From Streptomyces bikiniensis (lineage in GTDB: Bacteria > Actinomycetota > Actinomycetes > Streptomycetales > Streptomycetaceae), in the NCBI GenBank assembly GCA_000716465.1, contig JNWL01000026.1, positions 18,015 through 82,014 of the forward strand: a DNA stretch of 64,000 nt, in the 5' to 3' direction. Within the stretch, counting starts at the first letter, position 1. Each line of letters opens with the position of its first letter. Positions 33,824-37,361 of the stretch are shown here, in pieces. The notes beneath the pieces are model-generated. The model had not been told where the DNA came from. It worked only from the letters and a program-made list of their open reading frames with translations, and made no database searches. The translations under genes and the position numbers were made by a program.

Positions 33824-34117
33824 TCAGCCCTCCAGGTGCCGCTCGACGGTGGCGACCTTGCTGTGCAGGCCGTCCGTCACGCCGGGGCGGATGTCGGCCT
33901 TGAGGACGACGGAGACGCGGGGCGCGCGGGCCTCGACGGCGGCGACGGCGCGCCTGACGACGTCCATGACCTCGTCCCACTCGCCCTCGATCGAGGTGAA
34001 CATCGCGTCGGTGCGGTTCGGCAGGCCGGACTCCCGGACGACGCGGACGGCGTCGGCGACGTACTCGCCGACCTCCTCGCCCACGCCGAGCGGGGTCACC
34101 GAGAAGGCGACGATCAC
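33824..34117 (-). CDS. MTH1187/YkoF-type thiamine-binding family protein
   Basis: 97 residues, a small ferredoxin-like alpha/beta protein. VIVAFSVTPLGVGEEVGEYVADAVRVVRESGLP and FTSIEGEWDEVMDVVRRAV fit the MTH1187 family (segments shown). Members bind thiamine or an unknown small ligand; the role in Streptomyces is not established. GTG 34117 overlaps the upstream DUF3817 stop as GTGA, so the two are coupled. Confidence 0.8.
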   Translation of the reverse strand: MIVAFSVTPLGVGEEVGEYVADAVRVVRESGLPNRTDAMFTSIEGEWDEVMDVVRRAVAAVEARAPRVSVVLKADIRPGVTDGLHSKVATVERHLEG

Positions 34118-34458
34118 GCGTTCACCGTGCCCTCGCGGCGGGCGCGGGACGCGATGACCGCGTCCTCGGCCTCGCGCTTCAGCTTCCGCTCGGCGTAGAA
34201 GCCGCCCAGGGGCAGGACCGAGAGGACGAAGTAGAGGGCGGCGGTGCCGAAGCTCCACTTGGTGCGGTTCCAGGCGTCCAGCCAGAAGAGCACGTACAGG
34301 ACGAACAGGATGCCGTGGACGGCTCCCATGACCGGCACCGCGTTGAACTCCGTGGTCCGCTTGAGCACCGAGCAGACGAGGAGGAGCAGGAACGAGACGG
34401 CCTCCGGCGCGGAGACGAGCCGGAGCCGGTGGAGGGAGGAGGCGGTCTTGATGTCCAC
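34114..34458 (-). CDS. DUF3817 membrane protein (copy 2)
   Basis: 114 residues with three TM segments (APEAVSFLLLLVCSVL; MGAVHGILFVLYVLFWLDAW; TAALYFVLSVLPLGGFYAERK). HGILFVLYVLF and GGFYAERKL match DUF3817, and it is paralogous to the copy at 30068. The start is GTG 34458 (AAGGTGA upstream) or GTG 34470. The stop overlaps the next gene. It is divergent from the AIM24 operon across 120 bp. Confidence 0.8.
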   Translation of the reverse strand: MDIKTASSLHRLRLVSAPEAVSFLLLLVCSVLKRTTEFNAVPVMGAVHGILFVLYVLFWLDAWNRTKWSFGTAALYFVLSVLPLGGFYAERKLKREAEDAVIASRARREGTVNA

Positions 34459-34566
34459 GGAGGGGGTCACCTTCGTTCGGTCTCGTGACGCGATCTTGTG
34501 AACGGATGCACAAGGGCCCGTCCATTGTGCACGGCGACTTTGCTGTTCCTTTAGGCGGGTCCCCAG

Positions 34567-34578
34567 TACCTTCGGGCC
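34567..34578 (+). promoter_or_regulatory. Leaderless -10 box of the AIM24 operon
   Basis: TACCTT (34567-34572), then CGGGCC, then GTG 34579. No SD is present. Confidence 0.55.
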
Positions 34579-35217
34579 GTGGCAACGTTCCGACTCCAAG
34601 GCAGCAAGGTGCTCGCCGTCTCCCTGACCGGCGACGCCGTGAAGGCGAAGAACGGCTCGATGGTCGCCTACGACGGCCAGATGGCGTTCAAGAAGATGAG
34701 CGGGGGCGGTGAGGGCCTGCGCGGCATGGTGACCCGCCGGCTCACGGGTGAGCAGATGGAGGTGATGGAGGTGCGCGGGCAGGGGACCTGCTGGTTCGCC
34801 GACCGGGCGTCCGAGATCAACCTCGTCTCCCTGCACGGCGACAGGCTGTGGGTGGAGGCGAGCAATCTGCTCTGCACGGACGCGGGGCTGCGCACCGGCA
34901 CGACCTTCACGGGCCTGCGCGGCGGGGCGACCGGCAACGGCCTCTTCACCACGACCGTGGAGGGGACGGGCCAGGCGGCGATCGTGTCGGACGGTCCGGC
35001 GGTGGTGCTGCGGGTGACCCCGCAGTACCCGCTCCAGGTGGACCCCGGCGCGTACATAGCCCACCAGGGCAACCTCCAGCCGCACTTCCAGTCGGGCGTG
35101 ACCTTCCGCACCTTCATGGGCGAGGGCGGCGGCGAGGCCTTCCAGATCCGCTTCGAGGGGGACGGCCTGGTGTACGTCCAGCCGAGCGAGCGGAACACGA
35201 TCGGGGGCGACCTGTGA
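34579..35217 (+). CDS. AIM24-family protein, paralogue 1
   Basis: 212 residues, an all-beta double-barrel AIM24 (DUF124) protein. Family motifs are QMAFKKMSGGGEGL, RRLTGEQMEVMEVRGQGTCWFA, INLVSLHGDRLWVEASNLLCTD, GGATGNGLFTTTVEGTGQAAI and PLQVDPGAYIAHQGNLQ. Bacterial AIM24 proteins have no firmly known reaction. The C-terminus ends at FEGDGLVYVQPSERN. First of three consecutive AIM24 genes; a 79-bp gap precedes paralogue 2. Confidence 0.85.
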   Translation: MATFRLQGSKVLAVSLTGDAVKAKNGSMVAYDGQMAFKKMSGGGEGLRGMVTRRLTGEQMEVMEVRGQGTCWFADRASEINLVSLHGDRLWVEASNLLCTDAGLRTGTTFTGLRGGATGNGLFTTTVEGTGQAAIVSDGPAVVLRVTPQYPLQVDPGAYIAHQGNLQPHFQSGVTFRTFMGEGGGEAFQIRFEGDGLVYVQPSERNTIGGDL

Positions 35218-35962: not shown

Positions 35963-36744
35963 GCACCCCTGTCATCCACGATCCGCACACCCTGCCGTCG
36001 GACGACAACGTCAATCCGTACACCTTCTGCGTGGAGCTGAAGGGCTCCCAGTGGTTCCTGCAGAAGGGCAAGATGATCGCCTACTACGGGCGGATCGAGT
36101 TCAACGGCATCGGGCACGGGCGGCTCGACCGGCTGGTGCGGACGTCCTTCCACTCGCCGCTGCACGCGAGCGACTGGGTGGTGGCCGAGGGCAGCGGCAA
36201 GATGCTGCTCGCGGACCGGGCCTTCGACGTGAACTCCTTCGACCTGGACGAGGGCAACCTGACGATCCGGTCCGGGAACCTGCTGGCCTACCAGCCGACC
36301 CTGGCGCTGAAGCAGTCGATCGTGCCGGGGTTCGTGACACTGATCGGGACGGGCAAGTTCGTGGCCGCGTCGAACGGTCCGGTGGTCTTCATGGAGCCGC
36401 CGCTGCGGGTGGACCCGCAGGCGCTCGTGGGCTGGGCGGACTGCCCCTCGCCGTGCCACCACTACGACCACGGCTACATGACGGGCGTGATGGGCGGCGT
36501 ACGGGCCCTGACGGGTCTGGGCGGCACCTCGGGCGAGGAGCACCAGTTCGAGTTCGTGGGGGCGGGCACGGTGCTGCTCCAGTCGACGGAGCTGCTGATG
36601 GCGGAGCGGGACGCCGGCGCCCCCCCGGCCCAGGCGGGCGTTCCCGGCGGGCACGGCGGGCACGGTTCGGGCCACGGGCAGCCGGGTGCGACACCGCGCC
36701 TTCCCGGCCAGCTGGGGGACCTCCAGCGTCGCTTCGGGCTGTGA
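35959..36744 (+). CDS. AIM24-family protein, paralogue 3, His/Cys-rich
   Basis: 261 residues. AIM24 motifs are KMIAYYGRIEFNGIG, DWVVAEGSGKMLLAD, NLTIRSGNLLAYQP, FVTLIGTGKFVAASNGP and LRVDPQALVGWADCPSP. It has an insertion CPSPCHHYDHGYM (about 155-167) and a Gly/His tail GGHGGHGSGHG (about 235-245), both potential metal ligands that the other two lack in this form. GTG 35959 overlaps paralogue 2 and follows GGAGGAG. The three genes probably form one operon. Confidence 0.85.
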   Translation: MSTPVIHDPHTLPSDDNVNPYTFCVELKGSQWFLQKGKMIAYYGRIEFNGIGHGRLDRLVRTSFHSPLHASDWVVAEGSGKMLLADRAFDVNSFDLDEGNLTIRSGNLLAYQPTLALKQSIVPGFVTLIGTGKFVAASNGPVVFMEPPLRVDPQALVGWADCPSPCHHYDHGYMTGVMGGVRALTGLGGTSGEEHQFEFVGAGTVLLQSTELLMAERDAGAPPAQAGVPGGHGGHGSGHGQPGATPRLPGQLGDLQRRFGL

Positions 36745-36850
36745 GCGGTAGTCTGCGGACCGTGACGTACCCGAACGTCTGCGCCGACGGCGGGGGCGGG
36801 GCCGCGTCCGGGCCGGGCCCCGGGTGCCCGGCGTCACGCCTCCAGATTTC

Positions 36851-36884
36851 GTCAAGAATTCAACTTCTTAGGTAGAATCCACAT
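36851..36884 (+). promoter_or_regulatory. MarR promoter with operator in the spacer
   Basis: -35 GTCAAG (36851-36856), inverted repeat AAGAA-N6-TTCTT (36854-36869), -10 TAGAAT (36873-36878), then CCACAT and ATG 36885. The dyad within the spacer suggests autorepression; the mRNA is probably leaderless. Confidence 0.65.
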
Positions 36885-37361
36885 ATGGAGACCGATACGG
36901 CCACCCCGTGGCTCACCGACGGCGAGCAGTGTGCCTGGCGCACCTTCCTGGACGTCCAGAGGATGCTGACGTACCAGTTGGAGAAGGACCTCCAGCCCTT
37001 CGGCCTGACGATGAACGACTACGAGATCCTGGTGAACCTCTCGGAGTCGTCCGAGCGCCGGCTGCGCATGAGCGACCTCGCCGTGGCCACCCTCCAGTCG
37101 AAGAGCCGCCTCTCCCACCAGATCACCCGGATGGAGAACGCGGGCCTGGTCCGGCGCGAGAACTGCGAGTCCGACCGGCGCGGCCTGTACGCGGTCCTCA
37201 CCGACCAGGGCATGGAGACCATGCGCAAGGTCGCCCCGCACCACGTCGAGTCGGTGCGCAGGCACTTCATCGACCAGCTCACCCCCGAGGCGCTCGGCGA
37301 CCTCCACGAGTCCCTGAAGCCGGTCGCGGAGCAGCTGCGCGGACGGCGCGGCAAGCCGTAG
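36885..37361 (+). CDS. MarR-family transcriptional regulator
   Basis: 158 residues. The winged helix (about 45-120) includes LTMNDYEILVNLSESSERRLRMSDLA and SRLSHQITRMENAGLVRRENCESDRRGLYAVLTDQG, typical MarR (segments shown). The AT-rich promoter with an inverted repeat suggests autoregulation. It follows the AIM24 operon in the same direction and may control it; two other MarR/DUF3817 genes are within 7 kb. The ligand is unknown. Confidence 0.87.
   Translation: METDTATPWLTDGEQCAWRTFLDVQRMLTYQLEKDLQPFGLTMNDYEILVNLSESSERRLRMSDLAVATLQSKSRLSHQITRMENAGLVRRENCESDRRGLYAVLTDQGMETMRKVAPHHVESVRRHFIDQLTPEALGDLHESLKPVAEQLRGRRGKP

Follow-up and report, generated by a model that had tools for sequence, protein, structure and literature searches.

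Do three diverged genes of the AIM24 family, standing in a row on a contig of Streptomyces bikiniensis, act separately, or are they the parts of a single protein machine, and if so, in what setting? The stretch of DNA analysed, here called the window, comprises 64,000 nucleotides (positions 18,015 to 82,014 of contig JNWL01000026.1, assembly GCA_000716465.1; genome G000, contig C26 in our numbering), and the cassette genes, labelled A, B and C, lie in it as follows.

34579 to 35217, plus strand: A, first AIM24 gene, 212 amino acids with a GTG start; Pfam AIM24, E 8.1e-36, 124.1 bits.
35297 to 35962, plus strand: B, second AIM24 gene; Pfam AIM24, E 5.3e-38, 131.2 bits.
35959 to 36744, plus strand: C, third and most diverged AIM24 gene, 261 amino acids; Pfam AIM24, E 1.7e-10, 41.4 bits.

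What is observed is a unit of fixed order and tight spacing, the AIM24 fold of C and a proximity to Ter genes. The explanation favoured here, to which we give an even chance of being right, is that the products of all three genes are obligate partners in a single AIM24 module, itself part of the actinobacterial Ter (TerC/TerD/StiP-type) stress system.

Membership of the family is not in doubt for any of the three, all of which exceed the curated Pfam cut-off (PF01987; 25.7 bits). Coordinates and Pfam matches agree with the original prediction, made from the sequence of the window, of three diverged AIM24 genes between DUF3817 and MTH1187-type genes and a MarR gene, and the overlap that it had reported for the last two genes is there to be seen, being the 4 bases GTGA shared by B and C. 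The start of B is likelier to be ATG 35312 than 35297, since its relatives align from that Met. TIGR00266 is matched by A and B at 42.5 and 46.8 bits, both below the curated NCBIfam cut-off of 96.6, and C has no match to NCBIfam at E 0.01. The predicted model of C has the fold of solved members. With the AIM24 family as known (yeast Aim24, PA3696 (1yox) and SPyM3_0169 (1pg6)) the cassette has in common the Pfam cut-off and, from the model of C, the fold, and it differs in consisting of three diverged, ordered members, of which C has an extra loop and tail.

How far does the arrangement extend? A class survey of 246 genomes yielded 12 outside Streptomyces with a clear orthologue of C (E <1e-70; 55-71% identity), and in 12 of 12 A, B and C are adjacent, ordered and on one strand, the surroundings differing. 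To these a second sample, in which C was present in 10 of the 121 genomes from the order of G085 and in 11 of the 246 from the phylum (eight genomes being new), added nine loci (L187-L195) with A-B-C in all. Adjacency, order and common direction accordingly hold at all 21 non-Streptomyces loci examined, and within Streptomyces, where the loci are the best 80 of 445 confirmed candidates from a scan for C in named genomes, the order holds at 79 of 80 with the B-C overlap 4 bases long at 76 of 79. The real conserved unit is A-B-C. Carriers of C among the best 120 of 1345 matches in a protein search include Nocardia, Rhodococcus, Gordonia, Mycolicibacterium and Skermania. One genome, G310, has two complete A-B-C trios on two contigs (C8, L187; C9, L188), and at L195 (G504:C104:4000-20000), outside the class, the order is A-B-C-C', with a second copy of C, beside four TerD genes.

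On a phylogenetic tree built from 104 AIM24 domains each gene of the trio has a clade to itself (support 100/99, 100/99 and 100/100 for A, B and C), A and B being sister clades with moderate support (94/87), so that the co-linear, non-identical trio of the original prediction stands as a conserved unit, which is compatible with a hetero-oligomer. Distances of A, B and C correlate over 17 loci (r 0.93, 0.92 and 0.87, with 0 of 2000 permutations as high for each), as joint inheritance would predict, a correlation that does not prove contact. In a rival account three co-expressed paralogues work separately, each a homo-oligomer with its own ligand or partner, the fixed order being no more than that of an inherited operon. 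This we think possible, though doubtful: single-gene AIM24 members are found in many genomes, solved relatives are single-protein entries and A and B have retained ordinary family sequence, but C is never without adjacent A and B at the 21 non-Streptomyces loci despite the changing surroundings, and another triplet has evolved separately, at least for A and B.

That second triplet, A2-B2-C2, is in the window's genome at L036:12649-14805 (G000:C20), where the contig ends within its first gene, and also at L160:5759-8951 and L166, in both of which its first member is a TerD-AIM24 fusion with a Pro-rich linker. The original prediction named neither the Ter link nor AbsC, and this triplet was beyond its view. 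Like the first, the second triplet is a run of three co-directional AIM24 genes that occurs outside Streptomyces too, each gene forming one clade in the 104-domain tree; the clades are separate, with A and B of the first triplet not grouping with A2, B2 or C2. Trees constrained to unite A or B with A2, B2 or C2 were rejected, 6 of 6 (p 0.0002 to 0.0095). For A and B at least, duplication of a whole triplet is thereby rejected as the origin of the second, which is no copy of the first. For C, which is on a long branch, forced grouping with A2, B2 and C2 gave p 0.054, 0.163 and 0.049. A genome with the same genus code as the window's (G033, 5.8 Mb) is without the first trio and has retained the second.

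The company kept by the trio outside Streptomyces is informative. In several genera it is beside or among genes for TerD, TerC, StiP/PRTase and C-C lyase proteins. At L155, where C shares 97-99% identity with Nocardia proteins, A stands head to head with genes for two proteins, one having two TerD stretches and the other a TerD domain, and on the other side are DUF389, an unassigned protein, a StiP-PRTase-TRSP-PELOTA protein and a C-C bond lyase, the cassette there being inside a Ter stress island; L158 resembles it. A-B-C-TerD on a single strand is the order at L154, and TerC-A-B-C, again on a single strand, that at L192 and L193, with StiP, PRTase and C-C lyase relatives close. TerD, TerC/DUF475 and PRTase genes flank the trio at L156, and L195 has, in addition to its four TerD genes, a weak StiP-like match (31% identity). 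TerD is within 20 kb at 11 of 21 loci versus 1.04 expected from uniform placement (P ~6e-10), at 6 of 14 versus 0.71 with one unfavourable pick per genus (P ~3e-5), and at 3 of 9 versus 0.42 in the second sample alone (P 0.006), relatedness being ignored in each calculation. A-B-C is in or near Ter clusters above chance. That AIM24 genes neighbour TerD genes was already known (Anantharaman, Iyer and Aravind 2012, via passages of PMC5822837); by comparison with the Ter arrangement described in those passages, there are three AIM24 genes rather than one, and the Streptomyces trio is without Ter neighbours.

What might such a module do? The products of A, B and C would combine into one mixed AIM24 oligomer on the inside face of the membrane. 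A and B would be its ordinary AIM24 subunits; C would be specialised, its extra PxP...D loop and its C-terminal tail perhaps docking a partner. TerC or TerD would be the likeliest partner, given the TerC-A-B-C and A-B-C-TerD orders and the TerD-AIM24 fusion in the other triplet. The role of the module, exercised with TerC and TerD during metal or envelope stress, may be that of a scaffold or a sensor. In Streptomyces it would have left the Ter clusters and moved beside absC, where it may join zinc and antibiotic physiology. Judged from sequence, a physical A-B-C heteromer is likely.

Several points weigh against three obligate partners in a Ter module. Membrane binding by A, B or C is not shown by any sequence evidence here. 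There is no TerD within 20 kb at 10 of the 21 loci, namely those of G279 (69 kb), G177, G214, G259, both G310 loci, G357, G331, G337 and G356 (over 100 kb), the contigs of G214 and G357 being 19.7 and 9.9 kb long. Relatedness among the loci makes the chance figures too strong, and the placement model behind the TerD expectation is simple. All 21 loci were located through C, and A-B pairs without C would escape. Three Streptomyces genomes were checked, G000, G001 and G010, and none has TerD close to the trio: the nearest lies ~200 kb away in G001 and ~180 kb away in G010, and there is none on the window's 82-kb contig. In Streptomyces the Ter link of the trio is lost.

Two features of C had invited a different proposal.

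36442 to 36468, plus strand: loop CPSPCHHYD, specific to C (its residues 162-170); the PxP and Asp are constant, the Cys and His variable.
36646 to 36678, plus strand: His-rich stretch GGHGGHGSGHG, residues 230-240 of C; not conserved.

The CPSPCHHYDHG and GGHGGHGSGHG clusters were rightly placed in the third paralogue by the original prediction, which went on to suggest a hetero-oligomer, possibly with a metal site in one member (C, with its Cys/His loop and His-rich tail) and membrane contact via DUF3817. This combination we regard as very improbable. Its metal site looked strong at first, Cys162, His168 and Asp170 being invariant in 35 of 35 aligned C proteins, and it failed once sampling widened, for of 10 further copies of C 3 have Thr or Met in place of Cys162 and 4 have Arg in place of His168. 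More generally the first Cys of the loop can be Ser, Thr or Met and the second is mostly Ser outside Streptomyces. In the C loops of L195 Met and Arg replace Cys and His. The tail fares no better: there are 78 distinct tails among 80 loci, 46 of the 80 have at most one His among the last 50 residues of C, and none of 12 distant (non-Streptomyces) loci has a His-rich tail, which as a ligand is rejected. Since the tail is not conserved and the Cys and His of the loop vary, an obligate metal site in C is not supported by the sequences compared; free variation of these clusters is what the prediction itself had named as telling against the idea.

The membrane part of that proposal depends on the flanks, which in the window are these.

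About 33824 to 34117, minus strand: MTH1187-type thiamine-binding gene; Pfam Thiamine_BP, E 2.2e-29, TIGR00106; start inferred.
34114 to 34461, minus strand: DUF3817 membrane-protein gene; Pfam DUF3817, E 1.7e-25; divergent from the trio.
36885 to 37361, plus strand: MarR-family gene, orthologue of absC (SCO5405); match to 3zmd_A.

The survey of Streptomyces called for by the original prediction bears out its neighbours there: DUF3817-A-B-C-MarR is the order at 79 of 80 loci, a constancy that is not due to chance (the 80th contig begins at B), and the thiamine-binding gene is also present at 78. DUF3817 is then beside A at these 79 loci; its transcription, like that of the thiamine-binding gene, points away from the trio. 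At the 21 non-Streptomyces loci no relative of DUF3817, MarR or the thiamine-binding gene was found (tblastn, E 1e-4), which rules all three out as parts of the unit conserved outside Streptomyces, and with them membrane contact through DUF3817 as part of that unit. Among the best 80 of 445 the closest C proteins have 95% identity, those of S. wedmorensis and S. zaomyceticus included, and in the class survey C was present at E <1e-130 in 23 of 24 genomes of the same genus, G033 being the exception. A record titled Microtetraspora glauca (L073), probably a mistaken title, is arranged as in Streptomyces, and its C shares 93% identity with that of the window.

The flanking MarR is, from its sequence, the orthologue of AbsC (SCO5405): it matches 3zmd_A at 274.1 bits over residues 1-158 (all 158), versus 124.8 for the paralogue 3zpl_A. 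3ZMD is AbsC, implicated in zinc-dependent antibiotic production according to a paper on SCO3205 (PMC3737563), and AbsC together with Zur represses the coelibactin zincophore cluster, as stated in PMC9739823 and PMC3430247; nucleoid proteomics has SCO5405 as a candidate DNA-binding protein, with the text calling it a response regulator, at odds with a MarR-type AbsC (PMC3784963). With absC after C at all 80 Streptomyces loci retrieved and a neighbour of the trio in that genus only, might the Streptomyces trio be an AbsC-linked zinc or antibiotic-control module, the Ter link elsewhere being incidental to its present role? The coelibactin repression and the distance from TerD in the three genomes checked would fit, but in several other lineages the trio has Ter genes as immediate neighbours, some of them sharing its strand, and the element before absC is, by eye, a poor fit to the operator TTnAAnnnTCAA of the AbsC paralogue SCO3205 as given in PMC3737563, the sole fit tried. 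We consider this account unlikely.

Two stretches of non-coding DNA are conserved around the trio in Streptomyces, the sequences compared for both being 80 (79 loci plus the window).

34496 to 34529, no strand assigned: conserved element TTGTGAACGGATGCACAA...CCATTGTG, between the divergent DUF3817 gene and A.
36859 to 36876, no strand assigned: conserved element TTCAACTTCTTAGGTAGA before absC, from alignment of the 80 sequences.

The dyad that the original prediction had seen in the MarR promoter, AAGAATTCAACTTCTT at 36854-36869, is present there, though its left arm is not conserved among the aligned sequences; what is conserved before the gene is TTCAACtTcTTAGGTAGA, and a promoter-like match (9 of 12) spans 36849-36878. 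On the other side 72 of 80 sequences have TTGTGAA-N5-GCACAA no more than 400 bases upstream of A, and 60 have the full three-part form, in which CCATTGTG follows. TTGTGAA-N5-GCACAA is specific to that spot: the 80 loci, 1.1 Mb in all, contain 75 copies, and the 21 non-Streptomyces loci none. The element resembles sites of Crp (TGTGA-N6-TCACA) and Rex (TTGTGAA-N4-TTCACAA). No regulator is named for it, since the exact Rex pattern has 0 occurrences in the 80 Streptomyces loci. Further along the window, downstream of meaB, thiolase and glyoxalase-family genes, 40450-44784 is a very long coiled-coil-type open frame of 1444 amino acids, presumably at the position of the polarity gene scy.

Of all this AIM24, its fold and its place beside TerD were already known. 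For the ordered three-gene AIM24 cassette, its spread and its adjacency to absC no description was found among the matches listed in searches of open-licence papers, and the 2012 paper may mention triplets. A bolder picture can be drawn, one that we hold tentatively and think rather doubtful, in which an obligate A-B-C heteromer would be the bacterial counterpart of the mitochondrial Aim24 membrane complex and would couple membrane TerC to TerD-type metal sensing, mixed AIM24 assemblies having arisen at least twice by separate triplications and the Streptomyces trio having been recruited to AbsC-linked zinc and antibiotic physiology. The cassette is a solid, testable lead, with the mechanism unproven. 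Three genes that keep company in many soil bacteria, often beside a Ter cluster, suggest one joint protein machine, and a fixed cassette tied to Ter and, in Streptomyces, set beside the studied regulator absC provides defined proteins, likely partners and stresses to test. It is thus a concrete route to the function of the old AIM24 family in bacteria, and the finding that a single genome has two separately derived triplets hints at a preference for mixed AIM24 assemblies, one that would be relevant to the single-gene members too.
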